In this document: positions 29,484 through 54,019 of the stretch, one piece after another
Layout: each line of letters opens with the position of its first letter
Position numbering within the stretch: the stretch's first letter is position 1
DNA from: Paraburkholderia hospita
GTDB taxonomy: Bacteria > Pseudomonadota > Gammaproteobacteria > Burkholderiales > Burkholderiaceae
NCBI RefSeq assembly: GCF_002902965.1
Contig: NZ_CP026106.1
Coordinates: 2,108,001 to 2,172,000, forward strand
DNA: 64,000 bases
Direction: 5' to 3'
The notes under the pieces: generated by a model
The model's database searches: none
The model's input: the letters and a program-made list of their open reading frames with translations, nothing else
Told to the model about the DNA's origin: nothing
Translations under genes and position numbers: made by a program

Positions 29484-29575
29484 ATTAAACATGTCGGACG
29501 TATCTGCGGTTTGTCCGCATTGTCCGCCAATGAGTCGTTATGTATCAGGCGGCGGGGCAGATACATTGGGATACA
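29484..29575 (-). promoter_or_regulatory. GATACR-type promoter of hydrolase-P460 operon
   Basis: Read on the minus strand: TTGTATC-N4-TGTATC, 13 bases, GATACA (29546-29541), GACTCA 10 bases later, then 42 bases from the first GATACA a GATACG (29504-29499), exactly 9 bases, TTTAAT (29489-29484). Hexamers at 10-bp phase ending 9 bases before a -10 box resemble PhoB/OmpR-type activation sites. The leader to the start codon would be about 170 nt. Confidence 0.65.
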
Positions 29576-29629
29576 AAAACGTCGTGAATTGCGGTCCGGG
29601 AAACGCGTTCAGCCGTTCGGACCGTCTTA

Positions 29630-30076
29630 CTACTTCTTCGCTTCGTCCGCATCGTAGGTGACGTAGAGCTTGGTGTAGCCCTGCGTGTCGAACTGCCCCG
29701 TCCATCCTTTCGGCAGCGTGACGGCTTCGCCCGTATTCACGACCATCACCGAACCGTCCGACGACGTCAGCTTCACATTGCCCGAAAGAAAATAGAGGAA
29801 CTCCGTATAAGGCAGACCTTGCGGACCTTTGATGTCCTCGTGCAACGGACCCGATTTATAGACGCCCGTCTGATAGGCGTTATCTGGAGACGTGAAGGTG
29901 ACCACGTCAGTACTTCGCTGACCGTTTTCGTCCTTCTTGACCGCGTCGTTCCGGTTGAATATCGCGCCCGCGAGTTCGGCTTTCGAAACCTTGACGGGCT
30001 TGATGGTTTCCGCGTGCAAACCCGTTGATGCGATTGCACTGCTCAATGCCAATGCTGCGAAAAATGCCTTGTTCAC
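29630..30076 (-). CDS. Exported cupin-domain protein
   Basis: 148 residues from GTG 30076 (AGGA 7 bases upstream); an extended frame to 30208 overlaps the AraC gene and is not credible. Signal peptide 1-22 (cleavage after LHA). C-terminal cupin: TEFLYFLSGNVKLTSSDG and GEAVTLPKGWTGQFDTQGYTKLYVTYD, similar to the (S)-ureidoglycine/EutQ-like cupin_3 group but secreted. Ligand unknown. It lies 25 bp behind the AraC regulator on the same strand, so they are probably co-transcribed. Confidence 0.78.
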   Translation of the reverse strand: MNKAFFAALALSSAIASTGLHAETIKPVKVSKAELAGAIFNRNDAVKKDENGQRSTDVVTFTSPDNAYQTGVYKSGPLHEDIKGPQGLPYTEFLYFLSGNVKLTSSDGSVMVVNTGEAVTLPKGWTGQFDTQGYTKLYVTYDADEAKK

Positions 30077-30101
30077 GATGTTTTCCTGTGACTGAATGCT
30101 T

Positions 30102-31049
30102 TTACAACTGATTGACCGTAAAGCGGAAATCCGATGGCGACACGCCGTATTGCCGCTTGAACAGGCGGCTGAAATGCGCTGCCGTGGTGAATCCGCACTG
30201 CCATGCAATTTCCTGAATCGAACTGTCGTGCGCGCCGCGCGTTCGCAGCAATAGCCCCGCGCGCTCGAGCCGCGCCTGCCACAGATACCGCATCAGCGAC
30301 ATGCCCTTTACACGGAACAGCCGCTGCAGGTGTTGAGAAGAAACATGCACACCGGATGCAATCGCAGCGACGTCCAGCCCAGCCTCGCCGAGATGGCTTT
30401 CAATATAGCGCTTCGTCTGATGGATCAACGCTTCGGGGCATCGCCTCTTCGAGCGCGCGCCGGGATCGATCATCGCGAATTCGATGAGTTCGAGCAGTTG
30501 CTCGCCCATCATGTTTTGCGCAATGACGCTCGGCGCAGTGGATTGCCGCGCGATGCACTGGATGAGATCGCAGGTCGCGCGAACATCGGGCGACAGCGCA
30601 TCGCCCACCAGCGGCCCCGCACTCGAACGATACACGCCGCGCTCACGCAGACGCTCCTTCGGTACGCGCAGCACAGTCATCCGCGCGCGCTCAGGGAACA
30701 CTTCGACAAACGGATAGACGGGGTCGATGATGAACATGCTGCCCGCGTCGAAACGCTCGACCAGGCCGCGCGATTGCACATGCACATGGCCCTCCGTCAC
30801 GAGCTTCACGAAAAGCCAGCCGCCTTGCCACGACGGCAATTCTTCGCCGACAGGCGAAAGCGTCTGCGTTGCCAGGTCGGCAAGCGAGACGCCGACTTCG
30901 CCGAGGGTCCAACTCTTGACGGTCGAGTCGATCGACTGCCGCGGATCGAATGCGCATTGCAATCCGTGGCTGTTCAACATGATGTGCGACCATCGCTCGC
31001 CCGCGCTCAGACCGGTGTCGAAAGTGATCTCGTGCGTGTCGAAGTGCAT
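30102..31049 (-). CDS. AraC family transcriptional regulator
   Basis: 315 residues from ATG 31049; a longer frame to 31118 adds unconserved residues. The N-terminal half resembles the AraC-binding-like domain of the FeaR/AraC_N type (FDTGLSAGERWSHI, then HVHVQSRGLVERFDAGSMFIID). The C-terminal 100 residues are the double helix-turn-helix (LDVAAIASGVHVSSQHLQRLF and IQEIAWQCGFTTAAHFSRLFKRQYGVSPSDFR). It sits between an aldehyde dehydrogenase and a cupin gene, its likely targets. Confidence 0.92.
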   Translation of the reverse strand: MHFDTHEITFDTGLSAGERWSHIMLNSHGLQCAFDPRQSIDSTVKSWTLGEVGVSLADLATQTLSPVGEELPSWQGGWLFVKLVTEGHVHVQSRGLVERFDAGSMFIIDPVYPFVEVFPERARMTVLRVPKERLRERGVYRSSAGPLVGDALSPDVRATCDLIQCIARQSTAPSVIAQNMMGEQLLELIEFAMIDPGARSKRRCPEALIHQTKRYIESHLGEAGLDVAAIASGVHVSSQHLQRLFRVKGMSLMRYLWQARLERAGLLLRTRGAHDSSIQEIAWQCGFTTAAHFSRLFKRQYGVSPSDFRFTVNQL

Positions 31050-31150
31050 GAAAACGTCCCATGATTCAAAACGGACGGCATGCGCAGGTCTTTGGCGCGT
31101 GCGTAACGAATCGACCACAACGATCGATCACGCCCGCGCCTCTCTGCCTG

Positions 31151-32620
31151 TCATCCAGCCGCCGTCGGCATGAACACTGCCTTGGTTTCGAGGTACGCCT
31201 CCAGTCCCTCGCGACCGCCTTCGCGGCCCACTCCTGATAACTTGTAACCGCCGAACGGCACATTGGCCGCCAGTTCGACGCCGTTAATGCCGATATGGCC
31301 TGCCTGGATGCGGCACGCGAGCGCGTAGGCCCGCTCCACATCGCTGCTATAAACTGAGCCGCTCAGGCCATACGGCGTGTCGTTCGCGATACGCACGGCG
31401 TCGTCGATGTCGTCATAAGGAAGAATCGAAACGACCGGGCCGAAGATCTCCTGCTGCGCAATCGTCGTGTCCGGCGTGACGTGAGCGAATACCGTAGGCT
31501 CGACGAAATAGCCCTTCCCGAAGCCACCATTGCCAGTACCGCCCAACACGAGCTGCGCGCCTTCACTGATGCCCTGCTCGATATAGCCGCGCACACGATC
31601 CCGCTGCACTGCGTTCAATACCGGCCCGATCCGCGTATCGGTCTCGCGCGGGTCGCCAAGCTTCAGCTTCGAAATGATCTCAGCGTACGCGCTGACGACC
31701 TCGTCATGTCGTGCCCTGGGCGCAAGAATGCGCGTCTGCGCGAAGCAGATCTGGCCGGAAAACGGCATCGTGAACGGCGTCAGCGCTGCCAGCGCCGAAG
31801 GCAGATCGACGTCGTCGAGCAGAATCGCCGCCGATTTCCCGCCGAGTTCCAGCGTCACGCGAGCCAGCCGATCCACTGCCGCGCGTGCGATCCACTGCCC
31901 CGTGGCGACGCTGCCCGTAAAGCTGATCTTGTCGACATCGCGCGATTGCACCAGTTGCGCGCCCTCGTCACGGCCCGCCGTGATGACATTCAGCACGCCC
32001 GGCGGAAGGCCCACAGCCGCCGCGCATTCCGCGATGATCAGCGCATCGAGCGGACTCTCCGGCGGCGACTTGACGACGACCGTGCAACCCGCGGCCAGCG
32101 CCGCCGCGATCTTGTGCGACACGATCGGGAAGGTTGCATTCCACGGCGCAATCAATGCGGCGACACCGACGGGTTCGCGACGTACGCGCGCGTGGCCGCG
32201 CCGTGTCGGTCGCGCGTCCTCGAATTCGAACGTCTCTGCGAGCGACGCAAAGAACTCGAAGCGCGTGATACCCGTGGGAAGCAGACCATTCGCAAACGTA
32301 ATCGGCGCGCCGACCTGATCGGTCCACAGTTGCGCGAGCAAGGGCAAGCGCTGACGGATTTCTTCCGTCAGCCGCTTCAGATATCCGCTTCGCTCAGCGC
32401 CCGATAACTTCGGCCACGGACCGCTGTCAAATGCGCGGCGCGCCGCCGCGATCGCACGCTCGACGTCCACGGAATCCGCGAGCGGAACCGACATGAAAGG
32501 CTCTTCCGTCGCAGGAGAAATCAGCACATGGCGCGCGCCGGAGTGGCTCAGCACCCATTCGCCATTGATGAAAAAGCGACTGCGGACATTCGACGAAAGT
32601 GCTGTGGAGTACTCGGTCAT
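31151..32620 (-). CDS. NAD(P)-dependent aldehyde dehydrogenase
   Basis: 489 residues from ATG 32620. Full ALDH domain: Asn161 in APWNATFP, Rossmann FTGSVATG, general base Glu258 in LELGGKSA and catalytic Cys292 in SGQICFAQTR; FGPVVSILPYDD and GYKLSGVGREGG near the end. It would oxidise an aldehyde to the acid in the cytoplasm; the substrate is unknown, although the FeaR-like AraC gene next door hints at aromatic or amine-derived aldehydes. Upstream in-frame sequence to 32806 is not conserved. Confidence 0.94.
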   Translation of the reverse strand: MTEYSTALSSNVRSRFFINGEWVLSHSGARHVLISPATEEPFMSVPLADSVDVERAIAAARRAFDSGPWPKLSGAERSGYLKRLTEEIRQRLPLLAQLWTDQVGAPITFANGLLPTGITRFEFFASLAETFEFEDARPTRRGHARVRREPVGVAALIAPWNATFPIVSHKIAAALAAGCTVVVKSPPESPLDALIIAECAAAVGLPPGVLNVITAGRDEGAQLVQSRDVDKISFTGSVATGQWIARAAVDRLARVTLELGGKSAAILLDDVDLPSALAALTPFTMPFSGQICFAQTRILAPRARHDEVVSAYAEIISKLKLGDPRETDTRIGPVLNAVQRDRVRGYIEQGISEGAQLVLGGTGNGGFGKGYFVEPTVFAHVTPDTTIAQQEIFGPVVSILPYDDIDDAVRIANDTPYGLSGSVYSSDVERAYALACRIQAGHIGINGVELAANVPFGGYKLSGVGREGGREGLEAYLETKAVFMPTAAG

Positions 32621-33058
32621 GGTCTTTCCGATTGAAAGTCTTCTACATCTACAGTGAAAGGGTTTCGCAGCCAGCACCCGACGTATCGCGTCATGTCGGG
32701 TTGAAACCCACCAACGGATTCCGCTAACGTCGGGAACCTGTGACTTTTCAGTGTAGTGATTCGACTCTTTCGAAAATTGTCCAAGGCAATTCGATCGCTT
32801 GTCCAAAACGCGCTTTCTGATTGATGCCTGGTTATAGCCTGGTTTTAGCGCAGGAATATGTCGTAATGTATCTGCCGCCGCTTACGATACATCCGGTTTC
32901 AAATGCCTTTCCCGGACATACCTGCCCGCTGTCGTCCACGTCTATAGCGTTCGGATGCGCGTCCCAGACAAGACAAATGCGCCGCATGGACAAGGCATCC
33001 ATCAATTGGAAGCGATAGAGTAGGCAGTTCCCCTCCGTCGATCCGCTTCCCGATTGCA
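32621..33058. other. Intergenic region with TGTATC-N13-GATACA dyad
   Basis: About 440 bp between the aldehyde dehydrogenase and the truncated sigma gene. TGTATC (32867-32872) and GATACA (32886-32891) are spaced 13 bp, exactly as upstream of the hydrolase-P460 and DipZ-like genes. A further pair of phased hexamers (GACATG/GATACG read leftwards, near 32690-32706) lies nearer the dehydrogenase. No obvious -10 box at the standard 9-base spacing is seen for either neighbour. Confidence 0.5.
32867..32891. promoter_or_regulatory. TGTATC-N13-GATACA dyad (variant site)
   Basis: Same half-sites and spacing as in the island's other sites. Rightward, GATACA is followed after 7 (not 9) bases by TCAAAT. 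It may serve the dehydrogenase, the truncated sigma gene, or both. Confidence 0.5.
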
Positions 33059-33370
33059 ATGCAGTGCATGGATTTTTCGCTCATTCTTCCGGACATGCTT
33101 CCCCGGCTCTGGTCTTTCGCGTTAAGGCTGACAGAGAACGAATATGAAGCGGAAGAACTGGTTTATCAGGCCTGCGCGCGCGGGCTTGAAGACTCACACA
33201 AGCTGCCTCGCGACATATCCCCGCCCGACTGGATGTTCTCGATCGTGTATTCGATCTGGCGCGCCGATCCGATGGGTCATGCGCGGCGGCATTGTACTGC
33301 GAAGAAAAGTTCTCTTTGCTCACAACACCTTTTCCAGAAAAACGTGTGCGGAATAGATCCGCCTCGCTAA
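33059..33370 (+). pseudogene. Truncated ECF sigma factor (region 2 only)
   Basis: 103 residues. LPRLWSFALRLTENEYEAEELVYQACARGLED followed by WMFSIVYSIWRAD matches region 2 of extracytoplasmic-function sigma factors (core binding and -10 recognition). The frame then runs into unrelated sequence and no region 4 is found in any frame before the next gene at 33488. It may be a decayed gene or a short protein that still binds core polymerase. ATG 33068 is an alternative start. Confidence 0.6.
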
Positions 33371-33487
33371 GCGTTGTTGAGAAGAGCACCGGAAATCCAG
33401 CATCGGATGCATCCGGCTCGCATTACGAAATCCTCACTTTCAATCGGAGTACGACCCGCTTCGCGCTCCGTTACGGATCGAAAGAAC

Positions 33488-33937
33488 ATGTCATCCTTTT
33501 CAAGAATGCTGCTCGTCTACGACGGAACGCTAGAAGCTCAAGCCGCGCTGAAACGTTGCTCGCAATTGTCGCTGGCGTTGTCCGCACACGTCGATGTGGT
33601 TTCCGTCGTCGATTCGATCACGGCCAATGCGACCTGTGCAGGCATGCTGTCGGATCTCGCGTGCAGCAGTATGGAAGCCCACGCGCAACACGCGCTCGAC
33701 GTTGCAGTCGCGCATCTCGTGAATCTCGGCGTCACCGCGCATGGCTTCATCAAGTTCGGACGCACTGTCGACGTGGTTCCGCTGCATGTCGCAGCATTCC
33801 ATGCCGATATCGTGGTGATCGGCCATCGCGTGCAATCGGGGTTCGCGCGCTGGTGGGGCGGGCGCCCGGTTCATCTCGATCTGGCCGAACGGCTGCGTGG
33901 CGCCGCAATCGTGGCCGTCACAGCGCCCCTTTCGTGA
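33488..33937 (+). CDS. Universal stress protein (UspA) family
   Basis: 149 residues from ATG 33488. Begins FSRMLLVYDGTLEAQAALKRCSQLSLALSAHVDVVSVVD, the UspA first strand and helix, and ends with ADIVVIGHRVQSGFARWWGGRPVHLDLAERLRGAAIVAV. The usual ATP-binding G-x2-G-x9-G(S/T) loop is altered (GHRVQSGFARWWGG), so ATP binding is doubtful. Cytoplasmic stress protein; partners not evident. No convincing ribosome site. Confidence 0.78.
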   Translation: MSSFSRMLLVYDGTLEAQAALKRCSQLSLALSAHVDVVSVVDSITANATCAGMLSDLACSSMEAHAQHALDVAVAHLVNLGVTAHGFIKFGRTVDVVPLHVAAFHADIVVIGHRVQSGFARWWGGRPVHLDLAERLRGAAIVAVTAPLS

Positions 33938-33960
33938 TTTTTGATGAGGGCGCGTGTGGA

Positions 33961-33982
33961 CCGGGCGGCAGTTGCCGCCCGG
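33961..33982. terminator. Bidirectional hairpin between UspA and amidase genes
   Basis: A 10-bp GC-rich inverted repeat (CCGGGCGGCA with TGCCGCCCGG) with almost no loop lies 24 bp after the UspA stop and just past the convergent amidase stop. It lacks a U-run. Confidence 0.5.
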
Positions 33983-33987
33983 CAAGC

Positions 33988-35982: not shown

Positions 35983-36360
35983 TCAACCGCCGCCTTGCTG
36001 GCGCAGCGTCAGCTTGCTGACGACAGCCGTGACGCCACGCACCTGCTTTGCCGTTTCGACGGCGAGGTGGTCCTGGTCCTCGCTCGCAATCTGTCCGGCC
36101 AAGGTCACCTGACCCGTCTTCGCATTGCCGAATGCCGTGATCGACGTATCTTCCAGGCCCTTCGTCTTCAACAGCGTCTTTTGAACGGTCTTCGAGAACG
36201 CGCGATTCGCAACGCGAATCGACTTCTTCGACGTGGCAGCGGGAGCGGCCGTCGTTGCGTCGGTTGCCGATGCAGCCGCGTCCGCAGCGAACACCTGCGT
36301 GCAAGAGAATGCGATAACGGCGGCGAGGCCGCTGCCCATTACGAATTGGCGGAGGTTCAT
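35983..36360 (-). CDS. Periplasmic BON-domain protein
   Basis: 125 residues from ATG 36360 (AAGGAC upstream). Signal peptide 1-25 (cleavage after VFA), an Ala/Thr-rich linker, then one BON domain: NRAFSKTVQKTLLKTKGLEDTSITAFGNAKTGQVTLAGQIASEDQDHLAVETAKQVRGVTAVVSKLTLR. OsmY-like BON proteins bind phospholipid and are induced by osmotic or envelope stress. Promoter elements at 36432-36484 place it in the GATACR group. Confidence 0.87.
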   Translation of the reverse strand: MNLRQFVMGSGLAAVIAFSCTQVFAADAAASATDATTAAPAATSKKSIRVANRAFSKTVQKTLLKTKGLEDTSITAFGNAKTGQVTLAGQIASEDQDHLAVETAKQVRGVTAVVSKLTLRQQGGG

Positions 36361-36431
36361 TGTCTTGTCCTTGTCGTTGTAGAAACTGGTTTGCAGGCCA
36401 TCGAACGGGCTAACGTCGATGCCTGCCAAGG

Positions 36432-36484
36432 ATTAGAAGCGCCGAATGTGTCGTCTGTTTTTCCTCGACGTATCCAAATGTATC
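36432..36484 (-). promoter_or_regulatory. GATACR-type promoter of BON gene
   Basis: On the minus strand: GATACA (36484-36479), GATACG 10 bases on (36474-36469), GACACA 22 bases after that (36452-36447), exactly 9 bases, TCTAAT (36437-36432). The leader to the BON start would be about 65 nt. Confidence 0.65.
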
Positions 36485-37880: not shown

Positions 37881-37884
37881 CGGC

Positions 37885-42957: not shown

Positions 42958-43090
42958 GCGATGACGTTGCAGACACAGCGACGGGCATAACAGGCCCGCT
43001 ACTGTACCGTGCCTGTCACCCCGCAACGCCCGTATGTGACGCCGGGCTCATATTGTGACGTCGGGCGATCGCCGGTCGATCTTCCCGGGC

Positions 43091-44362
43091 TCAACGCAAC
43101 GGCCTGAACCCGGCCCGCACTTCCTGGGCGAACAGCAGCGGCTCTTCCCATGCCGCGAAATGGCCGCCCTTGTCGACCTCGTTGAAATAGATCAGGTTGT
43201 GATAGCAACGCTCGGCCCAACTGCGCGGCGCCTGATAGATCTCGCCCGGAAAGACGGTGATCGCGGTGGGCAGCGAGATATCGACGGCGTTGAAGTTGTT
43301 CGAGTGGTCTTCCCAATAGATCTGCGCCGACGACGTCGCGCTATCGGTCAGCCAGTACAACGAGATGTCGTCGAGAATCTCGTCGCGCGTCAACGAGCGC
43401 TCTGGCACGCCGCCGCTATAGGTCCACTGCGAAATCTTGTCGTACATCCACGCGGCCTGGCCGGAGGGCGAATCGGCGAGCGCATAGCCAACCGTTTGCG
43501 GGCGCGTGACCATCATCGCTGAATAACCGCAGTTGTCGCGATAGAAGACAGCGAGTTTCTCGTACGCGTTCTTCTCCTTCGGCGACAGACCGGCCGGCGC
43601 GGGATCGCCGACAGCCAGCGAGCGCGCGATATCAGCCGGGACGGTGGCGGGCATGTTCACATGGATGCCGATCAAACCCTTGACGTGCTGCATCGCCATG
43701 CGCTGCGACACCACGGAGCCGCAATCGCCGCCTTGCGACACGAAGCGCGTATAACCCAGCCGCTCCATCAGCACGCCCCATGCGCGCGCAATGTGATCCG
43801 AGCCCCAGCCCGGGGTGGTCGGCTTGCCCGAAAAGCCGAAGCCGGGCAAGGACGGCACGACCACATGGAAGGCGTCGTCGGCGCTGGCGCCGTAGGCGGT
43901 CGGGTCGGTGAGCGGGCCGATCGCCTTGATGAGTTCGAAGATCGAACCCGGCCAGCCATGCGTCATGATCATCGGCATCGCGTTCTTGTGACGCGAGCGG
44001 ACATGGATGAACTGGATATCCAGCCCGTCGATCTCCGTCACGAACATCGGCAAAGCATTCAGCTTCGCTTCGCCCTTTCGCCAGTCGTATTCGCTGCCCC
44101 AGTATTGAACGAGCTGCTGCATGCGCGCGAGCCGCACGCCCTGGGATTCGTCGGTGACCGTTTCCTTACCTGGCCAGCGCGTTTTAGCCAGACGTTGCCG
44201 TAAATCGACGAGGTCGCTATCGGGGATATTGGCTTTGAATGGACGGATATTCCCCGCGTTATTCGCGGCGTAAATCGCTTCGGGAAATAACGCAAATGCG
44301 CCCGCTGCCGCCGTGGCGGCCAGCACGTTACGCCGCATCGGCGAGAACGGAGTTGAAGACAT
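43091..44362 (-). CDS. Exported epoxide hydrolase (EHN-domain type)
   Basis: 423 residues. Tat-like signal (MRRNVLAATAAAGAFAL, cleavage near YAAN). Residues 39-145 form the epoxide hydrolase N-terminal domain (IRPFKANIPDSDLVDLRQRLAKTRWP), followed by an alpha/beta hydrolase with HGWPGS and nucleophile Asp213 in GGDCGS. Similar enzymes open epoxides; a periplasmic form is unusual. Gene start follows AGGATG. Promoter elements at 44487-44539 put it in the GATACR group. Confidence 0.9.
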   Translation of the reverse strand: MSSTPFSPMRRNVLAATAAAGAFALFPEAIYAANNAGNIRPFKANIPDSDLVDLRQRLAKTRWPGKETVTDESQGVRLARMQQLVQYWGSEYDWRKGEAKLNALPMFVTEIDGLDIQFIHVRSRHKNAMPMIMTHGWPGSIFELIKAIGPLTDPTAYGASADDAFHVVVPSLPGFGFSGKPTTPGWGSDHIARAWGVLMERLGYTRFVSQGGDCGSVVSQRMAMQHVKGLIGIHVNMPATVPADIARSLAVGDPAPAGLSPKEKNAYEKLAVFYRDNCGYSAMMVTRPQTVGYALADSPSGQAAWMYDKISQWTYSGGVPERSLTRDEILDDISLYWLTDSATSSAQIYWEDHSNNFNAVDISLPTAITVFPGEIYQAPRSWAERCYHNLIYFNEVDKGGHFAAWEEPLLFAQEVRAGFRPLR

Positions 44363-44486: not shown

Positions 44487-44539
44487 ATTAGAAACGACGA
44501 ATGTATCTCGCGTTTGTCCGCGATGTACTTGTTCGTAAC
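44487..44539 (-). promoter_or_regulatory. GATACR-type promoter of epoxide hydrolase gene
   Basis: On the minus strand: GTTACG (44539-44534), AGTACA 10 bases on, GATACA (44507-44502) 32 bases from the first, exactly 9 bases, TCTAAT (44492-44487). The leader is about 120 nt. The divergent flavoprotein gene starts 157 bases to the right. Confidence 0.6.
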
Positions 44540-44695: not shown

Positions 44696-46423
44696 ATGAG
44701 TCAGCATCGACACGACAGCGACGATCCACAGGCAGGCAAGCGTCCTTCCCCTCTGGAGCCGCAATCGGATTCGAATGCGGCTCCGAAGGCCGCGCCTGCC
44801 GATGACCGTTACCCACGCTTCAGCACCGCCGACATCGAAAAGATGATGCGCTTCGGCATGATTGAGCATTGGCGCGCGGGCGACGTGATGTTCCGCATCG
44901 GCCAGCCGGGACTCGGCATGCGCGTGCTGCTGCGCGGGCGTGCAAGGCTGTCGCGGCGCGATGGGCTCGGCCGGTCGCAGACCATCGTCGAGCTGGGCGC
45001 AGGCCAGTTCCTCGGCGAAGTGGCGCAACTCACCGGCAAGCCTGCGCTTGCCGATGGCCTCGCACTCGACGACGTTGACGCACTGATGATTCCGCCACAG
45101 CAGATCCGCGACATGCTCGTCGCGGAAGCGCACCTCGGCGAGCGGATCATGCGCTCGCTGGTGCTGCGCCGTTTCGGTCTCGTGCGCGAAGGCGCCGGCC
45201 CCGTGCTGATCGGACGTTCGGGCGATCTCAGGCTGCTCGCGCTCGAGGGGCTGCTGCATCGGCTCGGTCATCCGTACTCCGTCGCGGACCCCGCGACCGA
45301 TACCGACATCCGCGCTCTGCTCGAAGACTGGGGCGTATGGCACGACGACGTACCCGTTGTGATGCTCGCGGACGGCACGCTGCTGCGAGACCCCAATGAA
45401 CGTCAACTGGCCGCGCGCCTGGGCCTCCTGCCCGAACTCGACTCGGCGCGCACTTATGATGTTGCCGTAGTCGGCGCAGGACCAGCCGGCCTCGCCGCTG
45501 CCGTGTATGCGGCATCCGAGGGACTGTCGGTGATCGTCTTCGACAGCCACGGCCCAGGCGGACAGGCAGGCGCCAGTGCGCGGATCGAGAACTACCTCGG
45601 CTTTTCGACGGGCGTGTCGGGCCGCGAGCTGGCGGCGAACGCGTTCGCGCAAGCAGTGAAGTTCGGCGCGGAAGTCGTGATCCCGACTCGCATCGACCGG
45701 CTCGACTGCGCGCAGGCGCCGCTTCAGCTCGAACTGCAAGGCGGCCAGCGCATCTCGTCGCGCACGGTCGTGATCGCGACGGGGGCGGCGTATCGGAAGC
45801 CCGCCATCGAGGGCCTCGATGAAGTCGCAGGCCGTGGCGTCTACTACTGGGCTTCGTCGATCGAAGGACGTCTGTGCCGAGGCGCGGAAGTGGTCCTCGT
45901 CGGCGGCGGCAACTCGGCGGGACAGGCCGCCGTGTTTCTGTCGACACACGCGAGCCGTGTCCACATATTGATTCGCGGCGACGGTCTCGAGTCGAGCATG
46001 TCGCGCTATCTGATCGACCGTATTGCGTCGCTGGGTAACGTGGTGCTGCATACGCGGACCGTCGTCGCGTCCGTCAGAAGCGACGAACGGGGCCTCAAAG
46101 CCGTCACATGCAGCACGCCCGAAGGCGAGCTCGCATTCGATACGCGGCACCTGTTCCTGTTCACGGGCGCGAATCCCAACACGCAATGGCTGCGCGATTG
46201 CAGCGTCGAGATCGACGACCGTGGCTTCGTCAAAACGGGCCTCGCGGCAGGCGTGCGCGCCGATACGGCATGCTTCGCGTTGCAGACCAACGTACCCGGC
46301 GTGTTTGCGATCGGCGATGTGCGCAATGCATCGGCGAAGCGCGTCGCGGCGGCAGTGGGCGACGGCGCCGCTGTCGTCGCGGAGATTCATCAGTTTCTGA
46401 GCGCCCCGTTGCCTGTCGCATGA
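44696..46423 (+). CDS. cNMP-binding, thioredoxin-reductase-like flavoprotein
   Basis: 575 residues. Residues 40-155 are a cyclic-nucleotide-binding-like beta roll (FGMIEHWRAGDVMFRIGQPGLGMRVLLRGRARL); 165-255 a thioredoxin/glutaredoxin-like linker; 260-570 a thioredoxin-reductase fold with FAD motif VVGAGPAGLAAAVYA, GGQAGASARIENYLGF, NAD motif VLVGGGNSAGQAA and GVFAIGDVRN. The usual CxxC of thioredoxin reductase is absent (YYWASSIEGRLC). The linker also has no CxxC. It likely reduces something other than thioredoxin, or is a sensor. AGAGGA precedes the ATG. Confidence 0.9.
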   Translation: MSQHRHDSDDPQAGKRPSPLEPQSDSNAAPKAAPADDRYPRFSTADIEKMMRFGMIEHWRAGDVMFRIGQPGLGMRVLLRGRARLSRRDGLGRSQTIVELGAGQFLGEVAQLTGKPALADGLALDDVDALMIPPQQIRDMLVAEAHLGERIMRSLVLRRFGLVREGAGPVLIGRSGDLRLLALEGLLHRLGHPYSVADPATDTDIRALLEDWGVWHDDVPVVMLADGTLLRDPNERQLAARLGLLPELDSARTYDVAVVGAGPAGLAAAVYAASEGLSVIVFDSHGPGGQAGASARIENYLGFSTGVSGRELAANAFAQAVKFGAEVVIPTRIDRLDCAQAPLQLELQGGQRISSRTVVIATGAAYRKPAIEGLDEVAGRGVYYWASSIEGRLCRGAEVVLVGGGNSAGQAAVFLSTHASRVHILIRGDGLESSMSRYLIDRIASLGNVVLHTRTVVASVRSDERGLKAVTCSTPEGELAFDTRHLFLFTGANPNTQWLRDCSVEIDDRGFVKTGLAAGVRADTACFALQTNVPGVFAIGDVRNASAKRVAAAVGDGAAVVAEIHQFLSAPLPVA

Positions 46424-47764: not shown

Positions 47765-48520
47765 ATGGACAAACCCGACCACGTTCTGATCGTCGACGAG
47801 GACCGCGGCATGCGCGAGTTCGTCGCCAGTTATCTGGAGAAAAACGGCATGCGCGTATCGCTCGCGTCCAGCGGACGCGACATGCACGCCGTGCTCGACC
47901 GGCATACGCCCGATGTGATCCTGCTCGACGTGATGCTGCCGGGGGAAGACGGCCTCGCGCTATGCCGCGGGCTGCGCGCGGGCCGTCATCGCGCGGTGCC
48001 CGTGATGATGGTGACCGAGCATTGCGATGAGATGGACCGGATCATCGGCCTGGAGATGGGCGCGGACGACTATCTGGCCAAGCCGTGCGCCGTGCGCGAG
48101 CTGCTCGCGCGCATCCGCGCGGTGCTGCGACGCACGCGCATGCTGCCGCCCGGCATGCTGGTGGAGGAATCGACGGAGATGCTGAGCTTCGGCGACTGGC
48201 GGCTCGATACGACGGCGCGTCACCTGCTCGACACCGAGGACGCCGTGGTCGCGTTGAGCGGCGCGGAATACCGGCTGCTGCGCGCCTTTCTCGATCACCC
48301 GCAACGCGTGCTGACGCGCGACCAGCTGCTCAATCTGACGCAGCGGCGCAACGCCGAACCGTTCGATCGTTCGATCGACCTGCTGGTCAGCCGTCTGCGG
48401 CAAAGGCTCCGCGACGTCGCCCGCGTGCCGCGCTACATCAAGACGCTGCGCAACGAAGGCTATGTGTTTTCGTCGACGGTGAAGGCTGTCGAGGAAGCGC
48501 GCGCGCGGCAACATGCGTGA
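47765..48520 (+). CDS. OmpR/PhoB-type response regulator (paralogue 1)
   Basis: 251 residues. Receiver with IVDED, Asp55 in LLDVMLPGEDG, VTE at the switch position and Lys106 in LAKPC, then a winged helix (LLDTEDAVVALSGAEYRLLRAFLDHPQRVLTRDQLL through RYIKTLRNEGYVFSS). Very close to the regulator at 53055-53825. No HisKA-type kinase gene is next to either. Either is a plausible binder of the GATACR sites around it. Confidence 0.94.
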   Translation: MDKPDHVLIVDEDRGMREFVASYLEKNGMRVSLASSGRDMHAVLDRHTPDVILLDVMLPGEDGLALCRGLRAGRHRAVPVMMVTEHCDEMDRIIGLEMGADDYLAKPCAVRELLARIRAVLRRTRMLPPGMLVEESTEMLSFGDWRLDTTARHLLDTEDAVVALSGAEYRLLRAFLDHPQRVLTRDQLLNLTQRRNAEPFDRSIDLLVSRLRQRLRDVARVPRYIKTLRNEGYVFSSTVKAVEEARARQHA

Positions 48521-48616: not shown

Positions 48617-48708
48617 TGTATCGCCATGTATCCGGCGGCGCAGCCGATACATCGCGATACGCACCCTCACCTTCCTGAAATTCGCCGGATACATGTGCGG
48701 GCTTTAAT
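48617..48708 (+). promoter_or_regulatory. GATACR-type promoter of DipZ-like gene
   Basis: TGTATC (48617), TGTATC (48627), 13 bases, GATACA (48646), GATACG (48656), then GATACA at 48688-48693, exactly 9 bases, TTTAAT (48703-48708). The outer four hexamers form a symmetric array with 10-bp phase. Leader about 80 nt. This is the most complete example of the motif in the window. Confidence 0.7.
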
Positions 48709-48792
48709 CCGTCACAAGAGCACGCGCGAGATCGACATGCGCTGCGTGCAGACCGGTTGAATCAACCGTTTCCGGATCAGGAGGTCGATTCC

Positions 48793-50553
48793 ATGTTACT
48801 CATCGTCATTGCGTTTCTGGGCGGGGTGCTCACCATCCTGAGCCCATGTATCCTGCCTGTCGTGCCATTCGTCTTCGCCCGTTCCGACAAGCCGTTCGTG
48901 ACGGGCCGGCTGCCGTTGCTGCTCGGCCTGGCTATCACGTTCGCGCTCGTCACGGGCGTCGGCATTGCCGGCCTGAGCGGGGCCGCGCAACTGAACCACT
49001 ACGGGCGCTGGGTATCGCTCGCGCTGTTCGGCGTGTTCGGCGCATCGCTGCTGTTCCCGGCGCTCGCGGCGCGTCTGTCGCGCCCGTTCTTTGGGATCGG
49101 CAACCGCGTCGCCGCGCAGTCGCAAATGCGCGGCACACGTTTCCAGATCGGCTCCGCGCTGCTGCTCGGCGTGGCGACGGGCTTGCTGTGGGCGCCTTGC
49201 GCGGGCCCGATTCTCGGCCTGATTCTCACGGGCGCCGCGCTGCATGGCGCGACCTGGGCGACGGCGGCAGCATTGACCGCGTACGCGCTCGGCGCGGCGA
49301 GTTCGCTCGCCGTCGTGTCGGGGCTCGGCAAGCAGGCGCTCGATGGGCTCAAGCGATCGCTCGGTCTCGGCGAGCGCGTGCGCCGCGCGATGGGCGCGCT
49401 GGTGCTGTTGAGCGTCACGGCCATCGGCTTCGGTTTCGATACACGCGCCCTTGCGCAGTTGCCGTCGGCATCGACGACGGGCGTCGAGAGCCGGCTGGTC
49501 GGCCTGCTTGGTTCCGACCACGCGCAACAGCCGCGCACGCTGAAGCCGCACATCCAGCGCATCAGCGCGAAGGTGCCGTCCGCGCTTCCTGTCGAAGGCC
49601 ATCTGCCTTCGCTCGATGGCGCCGAGAGCTGGCTCAACTCGCCGCCGCTCACGAGCGACGCGTTGCGCGGCAAGGTCGCCGTCGTCAACTTCTGGACGTA
49701 TTCGTGCATCAACTGCCTGCGCACGCTGCCGTATCTGAAGACGTGGTCGGACCGCTATCGTAACGATGGTCTCGTGGTGGTCGGCGTGCATACGCCGGAG
49801 TTCGCCTTCGAGCACGATCCGTCGAACGTGAAGCGCGCCGTCGCCGACCTCGGCGTGCACTACCCCGTCGCGATCGACAACGGCTACAAGATCTGGCAAG
49901 CGTTCGGCAATCAGTACTGGCCGGCGTTTTATATCGTCGATGCACAAGGCCGCATCCGTTATCACCATTTCGGCGAAGGCGGCTATGCCGAAGCCGAGAA
50001 GGTGATCCAGCAGCTGCTGGCGGAGTCGGGACACACGATGCAGACGCGCGACCTGCAGCCCATTCAGGGCGCCGGCGCGCAGGCGGCCGCGGATAACCCG
50101 AACGTCGAATCGGGCGAGACCTATGTGGGTTATCAGCAGGCGCGCGGCTTCGCGTCGCCGGAAGACCTCCGACCCGACGACGTCGCCGCGTACACCGTGC
50201 CGTCGCAGTTGCAGCTCAATAGCTGGGCATTCGGCGGGAAGTGGATCGTGGGCGGCGAAGCGGCCGTGCTCGACGACGCGCATGGACGCATTGCCTACCG
50301 CTTCCACGCACGCGATCTGCATCTCGTGCTCGGCCCCGGCGTGAATGGCAAGCCCGTGCGGTTTCGCGTCACGATCGACGGGGCGGCTCCCGGCGACTCG
50401 CATGGCGCCGATGTCGCCGCCGACGGCAGCGGTGTCGTGACGAGCGCCCGCCTGTACCAACTCGTGCGTCAGCACGACGCCGTGCGCGACCGGACCTTCA
50501 CGATCGAATTCCTCGATCCGGGTGTGCAGGCTTTCTCGTTCACGTTCGGTTGA
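48793..50553 (+). CDS. DipZ-like thiol-disulfide/cytochrome c biogenesis fusion protein
   Basis: 586 residues from ATG 48793, after AGGAGG 9 bases upstream. Residues 1-215 form the CcdA/DsbD membrane part with Cys19 in SPCILPVVP and Cys136 in WAPCAGP; 265-420 a thioredoxin-like periplasmic domain with Cys305-Ile-Asn-Cys308; about 440-586 a beta-sandwich DipZ C-terminal domain (LNSWAFGGKWIVGGEAAVLDDAHGRIAYRFHARDLHLVL). Electrons would pass from cytoplasmic thioredoxin through the membrane to the periplasmic domain. Followed by a good hairpin terminator. Confidence 0.93.
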   Translation: MLLIVIAFLGGVLTILSPCILPVVPFVFARSDKPFVTGRLPLLLGLAITFALVTGVGIAGLSGAAQLNHYGRWVSLALFGVFGASLLFPALAARLSRPFFGIGNRVAAQSQMRGTRFQIGSALLLGVATGLLWAPCAGPILGLILTGAALHGATWATAAALTAYALGAASSLAVVSGLGKQALDGLKRSLGLGERVRRAMGALVLLSVTAIGFGFDTRALAQLPSASTTGVESRLVGLLGSDHAQQPRTLKPHIQRISAKVPSALPVEGHLPSLDGAESWLNSPPLTSDALRGKVAVVNFWTYSCINCLRTLPYLKTWSDRYRNDGLVVVGVHTPEFAFEHDPSNVKRAVADLGVHYPVAIDNGYKIWQAFGNQYWPAFYIVDAQGRIRYHHFGEGGYAEAEKVIQQLLAESGHTMQTRDLQPIQGAGAQAAADNPNVESGETYVGYQQARGFASPEDLRPDDVAAYTVPSQLQLNSWAFGGKWIVGGEAAVLDDAHGRIAYRFHARDLHLVLGPGVNGKPVRFRVTIDGAAPGDSHGADVAADGSGVVTSARLYQLVRQHDAVRDRTFTIEFLDPGVQAFSFTFG

Positions 50554-50576
50554 CACCCTCAGTCAGCGCTTCAGGC

Positions 50577-50609
50577 AACGCCACTGCGCTTTCGCGGCGC
50601 AGTGGCGTT
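50577..50609 (+). terminator. Terminator hairpin after DipZ-like gene
   Basis: A perfect 13-bp stem (50577-50589 with 50597-50609), 7-base loop and TT(T) tail start 24 bases beyond the stop codon. Confidence 0.75.
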
Positions 50610-50647
50610 TGTCATTGGCAACCCGCTGCCTGAGATTTGTAGCGCAA

Positions 50648-50729
50648 TGTATATATCGCCGATTGGGAAATACTGGCTTACATTCCGGCGCGTTCTGGAA
50701 ACAAGCCAGATACGTGAGCGGGTTCAAAT
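50648..50729 (+). promoter_or_regulatory. GATACR-type promoter of DUF4148 operon
   Basis: A weakened dyad TGTATA (50648), 13 bases, GAAATA (50667), 10-phase CTTACA (50677), then GATACG at 50709-50714, 42 bases from GAAATA, exactly 9 bases, TCAAAT (50724-50729). Leader about 125 nt. Confidence 0.6.
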
Positions 50730-50861
50730 AACGACACGCAAGGTTGATTCATGACAGTGCGACTGACCGGGTGAGAAGGCATCGCGAATGCAATACGCAA
50801 AACGCGATGACCGCCCGGGATGACATCAACGCAGACCCGCTTCACTACTGGAGAAGTACTC

Positions 50862-51188
50862 ATGAAACTCGTTCAATCCCTCATCGTTGCAGCCTTGATC
50901 GCCGCTCCCGCTGTGTCGTTCGCGCAGTCGAACCAACCCGTGACCCGCGCCCAGGTGCGCGCCGAGCTGGTTCAGTTGCAGCTGGCCGGCTACAACCCGG
51001 CCAGCGACAACACGCAATATCCGACGAACATCGAAGCCGCGCTGTCGCGCATCCAGGCTGAAAAGGGTGCTGCGTATGGCGGCGTCGCAGCGGGTCAATC
51101 GAACTCGGGCGCGCATCGCGACACCGCACAAACGCCCGCTCCGCAGCAAGATGTGCTGGGTCTCGAACCGATCTACGCGCACTCGTGA
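50862..51188 (+). CDS. DUF4148 domain secreted protein
   Basis: 108 residues from ATG 50862. Signal peptide 1-22 (cleavage after SFA), then QSNQPVTRAQVRAELVQLQLAGYNPASDNTQYPTNIEAALSRIQ, the DUF4148 pattern found in many copies in Burkholderia-type genomes. Role unknown; often stress- or plant-responsive. First gene of a probable operon with an alpha/beta hydrolase and a quinone oxidoreductase. Confidence 0.93.
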   Translation: MKLVQSLIVAALIAAPAVSFAQSNQPVTRAQVRAELVQLQLAGYNPASDNTQYPTNIEAALSRIQAEKGAAYGGVAAGQSNSGAHRDTAQTPAPQQDVLGLEPIYAHS

Positions 51189-51293
51189 TCGCCGCTGCTC
51201 CGTTTCCGATGCATGCACATGCGTCGTAACGGAGCGCCCAACTGACGCAGCAGAAAAACATCTATCGATAACGCGGTACTCAGGGGCAACACA

Positions 51294-52073
51294 ATGACAA
51301 GAAGCTTCAGGACCTTCCTCACGTTCGCCACGATGCTGTGCGGACTTTTCGCGTTGCAGACTGCGCACGCGGCCACGCAAGACGATCTCAAAGGTACCAG
51401 TGTCGTTCTCGTGCACGGAGCATTCGCCGACGGGTCGAGCTGGAACCGCGTGATCCCGTTACTCGAAGCACATGGGCTGCACGTTGTCGCCGTGCAGAAT
51501 CCGTTGAGCTCGCTCGCCGACGATGTCGCGGCGACGAAGCGCGTCATCGATCAGCAGAAAGGACCCGTGGTGCTGGCCGGTCATTCGTGGGGCGGCGTGG
51601 TCATCAGCCAGGCGGGCAACGACGACAAGGTCAAATCGCTCGTCTACGTCGCGGCCTTCGCGCCCGACGCCAACCAGTCGATCGCCGACATCACGCAAGG
51701 CATGAAGCCGCCCGTATGGGCGAATGAACTGCAGAAGGATTCGGCCGGCTATCTGACGCTGTCGGACAAGGCCGTGCGCGACGACTTCGCGCTTGACCTG
51801 CCCGCAGGCCAGCAACGCATCGTCGCCGCGACGCAAGGGCCGTGGTTTTCCGGCTGCGTGAACGACAAGGTGACGCAGGCCGCCTGGCACGAGAAGCCGT
51901 CGTACTTCGTGATTCCCGGCCGCGACAAGATGATCGATCCGCATCTGCAAGCGAAGATGGCGACGCAGATCCATGCGCAGGTGACGCGCGTCGACGCGAG
52001 CCACGTCGCGATGCTGAGCCAGCCCGAAGCCGTCGCCAACGCGATTCTCGCAGCGGCACGCAACGCGCACTAA
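51294..52073 (+). CDS. Exported alpha/beta hydrolase, EstC/salicylate-esterase-like
   Basis: 259 residues. Signal peptide 1-26 (cleavage after AHA). VVLVHGAFADGSSWNRVIPLLEAHGLHVVAVQNPLSSLADDVAATKRVI is the start of the EstC/MES-like group; nucleophile Ser98 in GHSWGG and His237 in DASHVAML. Unlike the other exported hydrolases here it has a Ser nucleophile. AGGGG precedes the ATG. It lies 105 bp after the DUF4148 gene and 16 bp before the quinone oxidoreductase. Confidence 0.9.
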   Translation: MTRSFRTFLTFATMLCGLFALQTAHAATQDDLKGTSVVLVHGAFADGSSWNRVIPLLEAHGLHVVAVQNPLSSLADDVAATKRVIDQQKGPVVLAGHSWGGVVISQAGNDDKVKSLVYVAAFAPDANQSIADITQGMKPPVWANELQKDSAGYLTLSDKAVRDDFALDLPAGQQRIVAATQGPWFSGCVNDKVTQAAWHEKPSYFVIPGRDKMIDPHLQAKMATQIHAQVTRVDASHVAMLSQPEAVANAILAAARNAH

Positions 52074-52089
52074 GGCAGAGGCGCGCGAC

Positions 52090-53058
52090 ATGAAGACCAT
52101 CATGATGGACGGTCCTGGGGGGCCGGAGAAGCTTCGGCTGGTCGAATGCGGCGAACCTGTCGCTGGCCCGGGTGAAGCCGTCGTCGAAGTGGATGCCGCA
52201 GGCGTCAACTTCATGGACATCGGCGTGCGGCGCGGCGGCATCTGGTCGACGATGGCGAATCCGAAACCCTTGGGCGTCGAAGGCGCGGGACGCGTGTTGA
52301 GTGTTGGCGACGACGTTGCGGATATCCGGCCGGGACAGCGTGTCGCGTGGGTCTATGCGCCCGGCAGCTACGCGCAGCGTATTGCGATACCCGCTGCATC
52401 GCTCGTCCCCATTCCCGACGCGATCGATCACACCACCGCCGCCGCCGTGATGATGCAGGGCCTCACGGCCAGTCACTTCGCGACGGACTTCTACCCTGTC
52501 CGGCAAGGCGACATCGCGCTGGTGCATGCGGCGGCGGGCGGCCTCGGGCTGTTGCTCACGCAGATCATCAAACAGCGCGGCGGCATGGTGATCGGCCGCG
52601 TGTCGCATGAAGACAAGATCGAAGCCGCGCGGCAAGCGGGCGCCGATCATGTGATCGTCGACAGCGAAGGCCGGTTCGCCGACGAAGTCATGCGCGTCAC
52701 CGACAGCGAAGGCGTGCATGTCGTCTACGACGGTTCGGGACCGGCGACGTTTCAGGGCTCGCTCGCATCGCTGCGGCGCTCGGGCACGTTCTGCTGGTAT
52801 GGGCCGGTGTTGGGCGCGGCCGGACCGCTTCATATCATGAGCCTGCCGAAGAGCATCAAGATCGGCTACGCGACGTTCACCGATCACGTCCACACCCCTG
52901 CCCTGTTGCGCGCGCGTGCGAAGCAGCTGTTCGACTGGATCATCGCGGGCGTGCTCGACGTGCGGATCGGCGGCGTCTATCCGCTTGCGGATGCTGCACG
53001 AGCGCACGCCGACATGGAGAGCCGCAGGACCACGGGCAAGCTGCTGCTGATTCCCTAG
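52090..53058 (+). CDS. NADPH:quinone reductase, zeta-crystallin type
   Basis: 322 residues. MDR-superfamily quinone oxidoreductase without zinc-ligand cysteines: GPGEAVVEVDAAGVNFMDIGVRRGG, PKPLGVEGAGRVLSVGDDV, AAVMMQGLTASHFATDFYPVRQGDIALVHAAAGGLGLLLTQIIK with the NADP-binding AAxGGVG-like loop (AAGGLGLL). It would reduce quinones or enones with NADPH in the cytoplasm. Last gene of the DUF4148 operon; its stop overlaps the stop of the convergent regulator by 4 bp. Confidence 0.92.
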   Translation: MKTIMMDGPGGPEKLRLVECGEPVAGPGEAVVEVDAAGVNFMDIGVRRGGIWSTMANPKPLGVEGAGRVLSVGDDVADIRPGQRVAWVYAPGSYAQRIAIPAASLVPIPDAIDHTTAAAVMMQGLTASHFATDFYPVRQGDIALVHAAAGGLGLLLTQIIKQRGGMVIGRVSHEDKIEAARQAGADHVIVDSEGRFADEVMRVTDSEGVHVVYDGSGPATFQGSLASLRRSGTFCWYGPVLGAAGPLHIMSLPKSIKIGYATFTDHVHTPALLRARAKQLFDWIIAGVLDVRIGGVYPLADAARAHADMESRRTTGKLLLIP

Positions 53059-53825
53059 GCGATGCAGTTCATCACAGGCGCATGCGATATTTGGCTTTCG
53101 ACACGCATCACCGCCGCCGAAAACAGATAGCCTTCGTTGCGCAGCGTCTTGATGTAGCGTCCGTCGCGCACGCCGTCCTGCAGCCGCTGTCGCACGCGGC
53201 TCACGAGCAGATCGATCGAGCGGTCGAGCAGGTCGGCGTGACGGCCTTGCGTCAGGTTCAGCAACTGGTCACGCGTGAGCACGCGGTTCGGATGATCGAG
53301 GAACACTCGCAACAGCCGATACTCCGCGCCGCTCAACGCGACCACCGTGCCTTCGGGATCGAGCAGACGGCGCGCCGCCGTGTCGAGCCGCCACTCGCCG
53401 AAACGCAGCACGGTGGCCGATTCAGCGACGCGCATGCCGGGCGGCAGCATGTTCGTGCGGCGCAGGACGGCGCGAATGCGCGCCAACAGTTCGCGGATCA
53501 CAAACGGCTTGGACAAAAAGTCGTCGGCGCCCAGTTCGAGGCCGACGATGCGGTCCGCTTCGTCGTGACGCGCGGACAGCATGACGACGGGTATCGCGCG
53601 AAATTCGCCTGCGCGCAATTCGCGGCACAGCGACAGGCCGTCCGCATCCGGCAACCTCGCGTCGAGGACGATGAGATCAGGCGTGTCGCGCTCGAGCGCC
53701 GCGCGCATGTCGCGCCCGCTGGACGCGTGCGATACCCGCATGCCATTGCGTTGCAGATAGATGGCGACGAGTTCGCGGATCTCACGATCGTTATCGACGA
53801 TCAACACGTGTTCGAGCTTCTTCAT
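53055..53825 (-). CDS. OmpR/PhoB-type response regulator (paralogue 2)
   Basis: 256 residues from ATG 53825. Receiver with IVDND, Asp55 in VLDARLPDADG, VMLSARHD and Lys106 in LSKPF, then winged helix (LSGAEYRLLRVFLDHPNRVLTRDQLL and RYIKTLRNEGYLFSA). It shares most residues with 47765-48520 but has Ser-Ala in place of Thr-Glu at the switch. No cognate kinase is adjacent. It is divergent from the LysR gene, across a region with a GATACR promoter pointing toward LysR. Confidence 0.94.
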   Translation of the reverse strand: MKKLEHVLIVDNDREIRELVAIYLQRNGMRVSHASSGRDMRAALERDTPDLIVLDARLPDADGLSLCRELRAGEFRAIPVVMLSARHDEADRIVGLELGADDFLSKPFVIRELLARIRAVLRRTNMLPPGMRVAESATVLRFGEWRLDTAARRLLDPEGTVVALSGAEYRLLRVFLDHPNRVLTRDQLLNLTQGRHADLLDRSIDLLVSRVRQRLQDGVRDGRYIKTLRNEGYLFSAAVMRVESQISHAPVMNCIA

Positions 53826-53935
53826 GACTGATCCAACGACTGCGGCTACGGCACCGGCAAGGCGCGCTGCTTCCGGCTCGCACTGATGGTGCAACGTGCG
53901 GTGACAGCAGCACGGTCGTCGCCTTCGTACGCGCA

Positions 53936-54019
53936 TGTATCCGGCCCACACCCGCCGATACAAAACATTGCCTGCGAGCCACTTCACGACATGTGACGGA
54001 TACATTCCGCTGCTCAAAT
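53936..54019 (+). promoter_or_regulatory. GATACR-type promoter of LysR gene
   Basis: TGTATC (53936-53941), 15 bases, GATACA (53957), then 42 bases on GATACA at 53999-54004, exactly 9 bases, TCAAAT (54014-54019). Orientation is toward the LysR gene (leader about 140 nt); the divergent OmpR-type regulator could use the upstream half. Confidence 0.6.

Follow-up and report, generated by a model that had tools for sequence, protein, structure and literature searches.

A conserved GATAC-based promoter design precedes redox and detoxification genes in Paraburkholderia and its relatives and probably marks the regulon of an OmpR/PhoB-type two-component system

In a 64-kb stretch of the Paraburkholderia hospita genome (contig C2:2108001-2172000 of genome G000; hereafter the window, in which positions count from the first base), six promoters share a layout in which two half-sites of the GATAC type, 11 bp apart, are followed after nine bases by a -10-like box of the form TNNAAT. 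This DNA design is conserved across genomes, is placed before genes and is associated with RR1, an OmpR/PhoB-type response regulator encoded in the same window, and a single OmpR-type two-component regulator most likely activates the gene set behind it, which is widespread in soil bacteria allied to Burkholderia and apparently undescribed. We put at roughly three in four the probability that the promoters make up the regulon of a seemingly unnamed OmpR/PhoB-type two-component system, a reading in which we infer binding, activation, phosphorylation and signal.

Promoter layout in the window

The original prediction for this DNA had named six promoters of one island in which a GATACR-like hexamer is separated by nine bases from a -10-like box. 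All six are present; five match GATACR-N9-TNNAAT exactly, and the promoter of a BON-domain gene becomes the sixth once GACACA is accepted as the hexamer. On the minus strand, the core of the P460/hydrolase operon promoter (29484..29504) consists of GATACG (29499-29504), nine bases and TTTAAT (29484-29489), with GACAA (29511-29515) as its 11-bp partner; a putative upstream operator on the same strand (29542..29574) reads GTATC-N5-GTATC-N13-GATAC, and its GATAC lies 42 bp upstream of the proximal one. The BON promoter (36432..36484, minus strand) carries GATAC at both 32 and 22 bp upstream of the proximal GACACA and GAAAA at 11 bp, followed by N9 and TCTAAT, and the epoxide-hydrolase promoter (44487..44539, minus strand) has GTTAC, AGTAC and GACAA at the corresponding distances from GATACA, again followed by N9 and TCTAAT; downstream of it on the same strand lie genes for a giant kinase, a LuxR-type regulator and receiver-only proteins.

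The other three promoters are on the plus strand. That of a DipZ-like gene (48618..48708) combines GTATC-N5-GTATC-N13-GATAC-N5-GATAC with GAAAT (48677-48681), GATACA (48688-48693), N9 and TTTAAT (48703-48708), and has a predicted start site at about 48715. The DUF4148-operon promoter (50698..50729) has GAAAC (50698-50702), GATACG (50709-50714), N9 and TCAAAT (50724-50729), with GTAGC and GTATA further upstream as degenerate copies, and the LysR promoter (53937..54019) has GTATC-N15-GATAC (53937-53961), GACAT (53988-53992), GATACA (53999-54004), N9 and TCAAAT (54014-54019).

Two parts of this layout had been overlooked in the prediction: a half-site that precedes each proximal hexamer by 11 bp (GACAA, GAAAA, GACAA, GAAAT, GAAAC and GACAT), and upstream GTATC copies in opposite orientation, which give GTATC-N13-GATAC in the P460 and DipZ-like promoters and the N15 form in the LysR promoter. 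Its account of the more distant copies stands in part. A second hexamer 42 bp upstream, claimed for four promoters, is found in three of them (P460, DipZ-like and LysR), and DUF4148 has GAAATA at that distance; copies at 22 and 32 bp, claimed for the remaining two, are exact in BON and degenerate in epoxide hydrolase (AGTACA at 22, GTTACG at 32). The statement that intervening genes are preceded by nothing comparable does not quite hold, since GTATC-N13-GATAC occurs at 32868..32890, between an aldehyde dehydrogenase gene, which it precedes, and a sigma-like gene, as an operator-like element with no canonical proximal site.

Behind this palindrome, at 30102-32806, lie an AraC-type regulator and the aldehyde dehydrogenase. 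By eye, a variant site on the minus strand (GATAC-N5-GACATA-N9-TAAAAC) would, in contrast to the other sites, have A at promoter position -11. On its other side the palindrome adjoins a 103-residue open reading frame (ORF; 33059-33370) that matches sigma-70 region 2 alone, below the Pfam cut-off, and of which two partial homologs lie near motif sites in locus L104.

Occurrence of the motif in the host genome

The five exact matches in the window compare with a mean of 0.06 in 100 dinucleotide shuffles, in which there was at most one match per shuffle, and thus bear out the predicted enrichment. GATACR-N9-TNNAAT matches the whole 11.5-Mb genome at 25 places; the reversed pattern, used as a control, matches it nowhere. 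A regulon weight matrix, built after these initial pattern counts, scored ten of the 25 at 24.7-46.9 bits, one (L024) at 18.0 and 14 at 11.0 or less; we took the 14 as chance matches and left L024 unassigned.

Eleven sites were then aligned gap-free into a sequence-only model, R1, which on the host genome regains its eleven building sites together with four weaker matches. Two of these (C2:632015-632049 and C3:1225415-1225448; loci L046, with an expectation value (E) of 0.136, and L048, E 1.5) were retained because the other half-sites are visible there on inspection, and L047 and L049 were taken as chance. R1 searches score just the best 46-150 first-look candidates per genome, and some sites may be missed. 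This brings the genome total to 13 sites with the common layout, six in the window and seven elsewhere, so that the design, first described as that of one island, extends well beyond it.

Equal frequency in coding DNA, which would have spoken against the prediction, is not seen. Homology to the query proteins covers 22% of the fetched bases, and none of 149 sites of at least 25 bits falls inside such a stretch; the loci of this set were picked around sites or regulators, and some sites are counted twice in overlapping loci.

Conservation of the design across genomes

An R1 match (E <=0.05) is present in 38 of 120 genomes of the family, and scans of relatives recovered the design both in genomes of the same genus and in other genera; named loci with sites come from Paraburkholderia, Burkholderia, Trinickia, Pandoraea, Herbaspirillum and Pseudoduganella. 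We built an ungapped profile of 84 sites (>=24 bits) from 45 sequences chosen for holding sites, counting positions from the proximal hexamer as 0, a fixed register that is partly imposed by the gap-free matrix. With up to one mismatch allowed, GTATC is found at -70/-71 in 67 of the 84 and at -60/-61 in 65, and GATAC at -42/-43 in 59. GAMA occurs 11 bp upstream of the hexamer in 77/84, GATACRT at 0, and TNNAAT at +15 to +20 again in 77/84, while an A at +27, the start site expected 7 bp past the -10-like box, is seen in 53/84. Reduction to 56 non-redundant sites leaves this picture unchanged, and no -35 box was seen in the 84-site profile.

What stands over the -35 region instead is a direct repeat of half-sites with 11-bp spacing that ends 9 bp before the box, GAMAC-N6-GATACR-N9-TNNAAT. 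A half-site direct repeat in place of the -35 element, at a fixed distance from the -10, is what defines class II sites of the PhoB kind, and in geometry these promoters suit class II activation by an activator bound in place of the -35 box, as the prediction had proposed. A different -10 register was considered and rejected: TANNNT downstream of GATAC occurs in 5/84 sites each at +17 and +20 and in no more than two at any other position. At +2, inside the half-site, it occurs in 10/84.

The -10-like box

We next give the box in promoter numbering, in which -11 is the bracketed base of T[C/T/G]NAAT. In a scan that ignored the box hexamer itself (sites of at least 17 bits), TNNAAT is present at 74 of 83 sites; A stands at -11 in none of the 74, and TANNNT in none of the 83. 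Among the 56 non-redundant sites, too, A at -11 is absent, and T and G occur there besides C. The A at -11 is the base that opens first in promoter melting. These boxes thus depart from the housekeeping sigma-70 form with A at -11, TAnAAT, which is the general -10 of B. cenocepacia according to PMC4603805.

Candidate regulator and its relatives

By gene neighbourhood and co-occurrence, the best candidates for the regulator of the motif are RR1 and its paralogs, which are likely to read it. RR1 (47765-48520, plus strand) and RR2 (53055..53825, minus strand, 70% identical and divergent from the LysR gene) both have a receiver and a Trans_reg_C winged helix above the Pfam cut-offs, which places them among OmpR/PhoB-type regulators. 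Neither adjoins an RR1-type kinase gene. The gene for a third copy, on contig C1, is immediately followed by one for an EnvZ-like kinase, and in most relatives regulator and kinase genes follow each other as a pair. Redoxin or DsbD-like genes are often neighbours of this pair, and the motif then lies between them and it. The host genome also encodes a more distant OmpR-like protein (C3:668275), 45% identical.

At the contig C1 pair we also observed GTATC-N13-GATAC (G000:C1:1675430-1675452), about 500 bp before the pair and ahead of a GFA-family gene (L026). A GFA-family gene likewise precedes the regulator-kinase pair in L175, and the palindrome recurs at a similar distance in L194 and L204.

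Among curated families, the best match is OmpR for RR1 and EnvZ for the kinase next to its ortholog in L175, with scores that stay below the equivalog cut-offs: 230.7 (RR1) and 222 (RR2) against 331 bits for OmpR (NF007005), and 176.5 against 415 bits for EnvZ (NF007004). PhoB (TIGR02154, cut-off 296.2 bits) gives 192.2 for RR1 and 198.2 for RR2. Within the RR1 clade the recognition helix hardly varies (DRSIDLLVSRLRQRL, few substitutions). It has DVQ in L201, L206, L210 and L213, which carry GTTAC, a small sample.

Motif and regulator occur together. In the family sample 57 genomes have an RR1 homolog (E 1e-60), and 35 of these have the motif, as do 3 of the 63 that lack one; the figure rises to 34/36 where the homolog has at least 73% identity; the two exceptions, G073 and G101, have a site beside RR1 after all (L139, L140). 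In 144 genomes of the genus the motif accompanies an RR1-type gene (E 1e-85) in 119 of 122, as against 7 of 22 genomes without one (Fisher tests 6e-12 and 1e-12 for family and genus, both ignoring the tree). Several of the discordant genus genomes can be described individually. Among those with the motif and no RR1 match, RR1 is cut at a contig end in G250 and G135 has one weak match (E 0.013); RR1 lies in two pieces in different frames in G239 (L263), and remnants of RR1 and its kinase are left in G240 (L251), with motif sites persisting in both. G104, G188 and G216 make up the rest of the seven. Among those with RR1 and no R1 match, G168 has a site just over the threshold (E 0.0202), and G149 and G227 have none that is convincing.

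At the level of loci, a site of at least 20 bits lies within about 10 kb of RR1 in 20 of 35 and a weaker one (13-20 bits) in five. Among named relatives, 25 of 34 with at least 65% identity have a site (>=15 bits) within 5 kb, as do 2 of 46 that are more distant, and one shuffle of each named-relative locus yielded no site.

More distant relatives of RR1 have related repeats. A motif-blind count of similar 5-mers at 10-bp intervals in front of 27 regulators (51-63% identity) has among its top entries GTAAC (11 loci, 0.62 expected), GATAC (8, 0.38 expected) and GTATC (7, 0.38 expected); a spacing of 11 bp gave nothing comparable upstream of the same 27. Of 80 upstream regions, 22 contain tandem GATAC/GTTAC repeats with 10-bp spacing, for the most part 60-125 bp from the gene. 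Ten of the 46 relatives with less than 65% identity have a relaxed promoter core (for example GACAT-N6-GTTAC-N10-TNNAAT), a count with no chance control. The 20 relaxed matches that begin with T have C at -11 in eight, T in nine, G in two and A in one, in a search whose accepted hexamer form.C.AAT favours C at that position.

Genes behind the promoters

In the window, the targets are an operon of an alpha/beta hydrolase and a cytochrome P460 (27728..29307, minus strand); a BON-domain protein (35983..36429 as the ORF is listed, minus strand, with its true start probably at an ATG further downstream); an epoxide hydrolase with EHN and abhydrolase domains (43091..44362, minus strand); a DipZ-like protein with DsbD_TM, redoxin and Thioredoxin_10 parts (48757..50553, plus strand); an operon of DUF4148, an alpha/beta hydrolase and a zinc-type dehydrogenase (50820..53058, plus strand); and a LysR-type regulator (54064..55098, plus strand). 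Behind the seven sites elsewhere lie an OsmC-family gene followed by a MarR-type gene, a second epoxide hydrolase, a redoxin, an alpha/beta hydrolase, an OsmC-tautomerase pair, a PanE-type reductase and an ABC transporter; Pfam confirms the OsmC-family labels, and the first such protein is Ohr-like by eye.

The 13 sites thus have a largely coherent theme of redox and detoxification, in line with the envelope and detoxification regulon first suggested for the island, and the full design is found again upstream of functionally related genes genome-wide. OsmC-family proteins, redoxin, DsbD-like protein, epoxide and other hydrolases and P460 together suggest a response to oxidants or reactive electrophiles, and from this gene set the signal would be such compounds acting in the periplasm. 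Oxidants strongly induce Ohr/OsmC genes in B. cenocepacia (PMC2830190), a report that we do not count as evidence here.

Two further genes of the window are notable. The protein encoded at 37885-43026 (1713 residues) combines a protein-kinase-like domain, an AAA_16 ATPase, GAF and histidine-kinase domains and adjoins the LuxR-type and receiver-only proteins, possibly as a second signalling layer inside the regulon. At 44696-46423, divergent from the epoxide hydrolase gene, a cyclic-nucleotide-binding domain is fused to a thioredoxin-reductase-like oxidoreductase.

Comparison with known systems

In the literature searched, which had most subscription journals outside its reach, we found no named regulon with this motif, as the prediction had likewise stated. 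The nearest published motifs include that of Bordetella RisA, GTTACA (PMC11019879), one base from GATACA; GTTAC occurs in several distant RR1 relatives and GATAC in the RR1 clade. Pseudomonas RhpRS is likewise a two-component system with GTATC/GATAC half-sites, with orthologs reported in beta- and gammaproteobacteria and the element GTATC-N6-GATAC (PMC6426608). This inverted layout is absent from the window and from the upstream regions, at most 500 bp long, that were fetched with 80 RR1 relatives, and we therefore rejected the RhpR box as the identity of the motif; it is by its element, not by protein sequence, that RhpR is set apart here.

The pho box has an 11-bp half-site spacing and the letters TGTCA. 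In E. coli it usually substitutes for the -35 region (PMC4971064), and PhoB promoters resemble ours in having an OmpR/PhoB-type activator and a half-site direct repeat in place of the -35 element at a fixed short distance from the -10. They differ in that the half-sites here are of the GATAC type, with additional inverted GTATC copies upstream, redox and detoxification targets and no A at -11. The likeness to OmpR/EnvZ lies in the best curated matches of RR1 and the L175 kinase and in the tandem 10-bp half-sites, which OmpR is reported to bind (PMC7380067). The differences lie in the curated scores (230.7 of 331 and 176.5 of 415) and in the recognition helix, which has SIDLL in RR1, whereas E. 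coli OmpR and the OmpR-like genes found in G216 and G188 have DVQ.

Discussion

Taken together, the data describe a regulon that is real, conserved and, it appears, not reported before; its regulator belongs to a known kind, and one feature of its promoters is unusual. In the mechanism that we propose, the phosphorylated regulator (RR1, probably also its paralogs) would bind GATAC half-sites as tandem dimers. One dimer on GAMAC-N6-GATACR, with half-sites 11 bp apart at about -38 to -22, would replace the -35 box and bring RNA polymerase to the T[C/T/G]NAAT box. Activation may be assisted, or divergent genes served, by additional dimers at -42/-43 and on the inverted GTATC copies that lie about 60 and 70 bp upstream, as an inverted half-site pair could act in both directions. 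The signalling pair would be the contig C1 regulator with its EnvZ-like kinase, and the island RR1 and RR2 would be copies that have no such kinase neighbour.

Several observations weigh against this reading. The weight matrix was enlarged from its own matches, and the co-occurrence of RR1 and motif partly reflects shared ancestry and genome size. Ten of the 35 RR1 loci (L136, L141, L142, L147, L149, L150, L153, L154, L156 and L162) have no site; five of them (L141, L142, L147, L149 and L150) belong to genomes with strong sites elsewhere, and L162 is the contig C1 pair, which has the palindrome instead. Where the RR1 homolog has 63-72% identity, only one of 21 family genomes has an R1 match, and 16 such loci include seven with a site of at least 20 bits, five with a weak one (13-20 bits) and four with none. 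Three genomes, G104, G188 and G216, have three or four strong sites and no RR1 relative above 46% identity, with intact motif clusters (L110, L249 and L250); in these genomes the sites are either read by a different regulator or have outlived a recent loss of RR1. The motif is also associated with LuxR-type homologs (E 1e-50), being present in 29 of 45 genomes with such a homolog and 9 of 75 without. Finally, as A never stands at -11, a plain sigma-70 mechanism is not obvious.

We consider it unlikely that another co-travelling regulator, the LuxR-type one with the giant kinase or the LysR-type one, binds the motif with RR1 as a bystander or a target. It would account for the three genomes that keep strong sites without RR1. 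In G104, moreover, a LuxR-type regulator has as its neighbours a receiver-only protein and a kinase that shares 53% identity with the RR1-type kinase in its core, and in G216 a LysR 67% identical to that of the window adjoins the sites. The LuxR-type association, however, appears to go with RR1, because it largely vanishes without a close RR1: the motif is present in 2 of 18 genomes that have the LuxR-type gene and no close RR1 (>=73%), in 7 of 9 with the converse combination, in 27 of 27 with both genes and in 2 of 66 with neither. This family is also rich in paralogs (10 matches in the host genome), and in the loci examined RR1 adjoins the motif far more often than does a LuxR-type or LysR-type gene. 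The tandem half-sites spaced by 10-11 bp are typical of OmpR-type regulators and recur upstream of distant RR1 relatives, and GTATC-N13-GATAC is a poor fit to the LysR-type box (T-N11-A type). We hold it a shade more doubtful still that the sites are operators of repression, at which a regulator covering -38 to -22 would block RNA polymerase. The proximal pair does overlap the polymerase contact region, and many response regulators both activate and repress; yet there is no visible -35 box for an unaided polymerase, the -10-like box is poor, and the fixed 9-bp spacing fits activation, given that repressors tolerate varied positions. Chance or composition as the source of the motif we give practically no credit. 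Most loose matches elsewhere do score low (14 of the 25), but almost none are expected in the window, shuffled loci of relatives have none, and the return of the motif before the same gene families in many genomes already refutes it.

The choice of sigma factor is a refinement compatible with regulation by an OmpR/PhoB-type system. It is possible, if on balance rather unlikely, that an extracytoplasmic function (ECF)-like alternative sigma factor reads TCNAAT and, as there is no proper -35 element, is recruited by the OmpR-type protein. The -10-like box presumably resembles the TCNAA box of sigma-E-like factors, and the complete absence of A at -11 and of TANNNT sets it apart from the TAnAAT of B. 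cenocepacia (PMC4603805). For P. aeruginosa, recruitment of the ECF factor VreI by PhoB has been proposed at promoters whose -35 is poor or whose boxes are non-standard (PMC4971064), which makes another sigma factor a live option; a deliberately weak sigma-70 box is one too. At the pdtA and phdA promoters of that system an OmpR/PhoB-type regulator acts, as here, with a -10 that is not sigma-70-like, but the pho box lies upstream of the -35, whereas the half-sites here cover the -35 region (PMC4971064). On the other side, no sigma gene was found to accompany RR1, in loci that were not searched systematically for one, and TATAAT does occur in one of 26 relaxed sites near relatives (L226). GAMAC lies about 3 bp further from the -10-like box than is usual for ECF promoters, and T and G stand at -11 too. 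A poor -10 could simply render sigma-70 promoters strictly activator dependent. GATAC or GAMAC as an ECF -35 box was rejected, since the gaps to the -10-like box, about 10 or 21 bp, are both unusual.

A wider proposal, which we advance tentatively and at less than even odds, is that an OmpR-family regulator replaces the -35 element and steers polymerase to a -10-like box that excludes A at -11, in an old promoter class reaching from beta- to gamma- and alphaproteobacterial relatives. The same system would link an EnvZ-like sensor with thiol redox in the periplasm and with epoxide and peroxide detoxification. If true, either a dedicated alternative sigma factor would be recruited regulon-wide by a response regulator, or the housekeeping polymerase would melt promoters at a base other than A only while the activator is bound. 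The strict absence of A at -11 poses a concrete question about promoter melting and sigma choice that could be tested with one regulator and one promoter. For Paraburkholderia, Burkholderia, Trinickia, Pandoraea, Herbaspirillum and Pseudoduganella, the design would provide a readable address label for a stress regulon, tying many genes of obscure role (DUF4148, P460, BON and hydrolases) to one switch and naming a candidate for its regulator.

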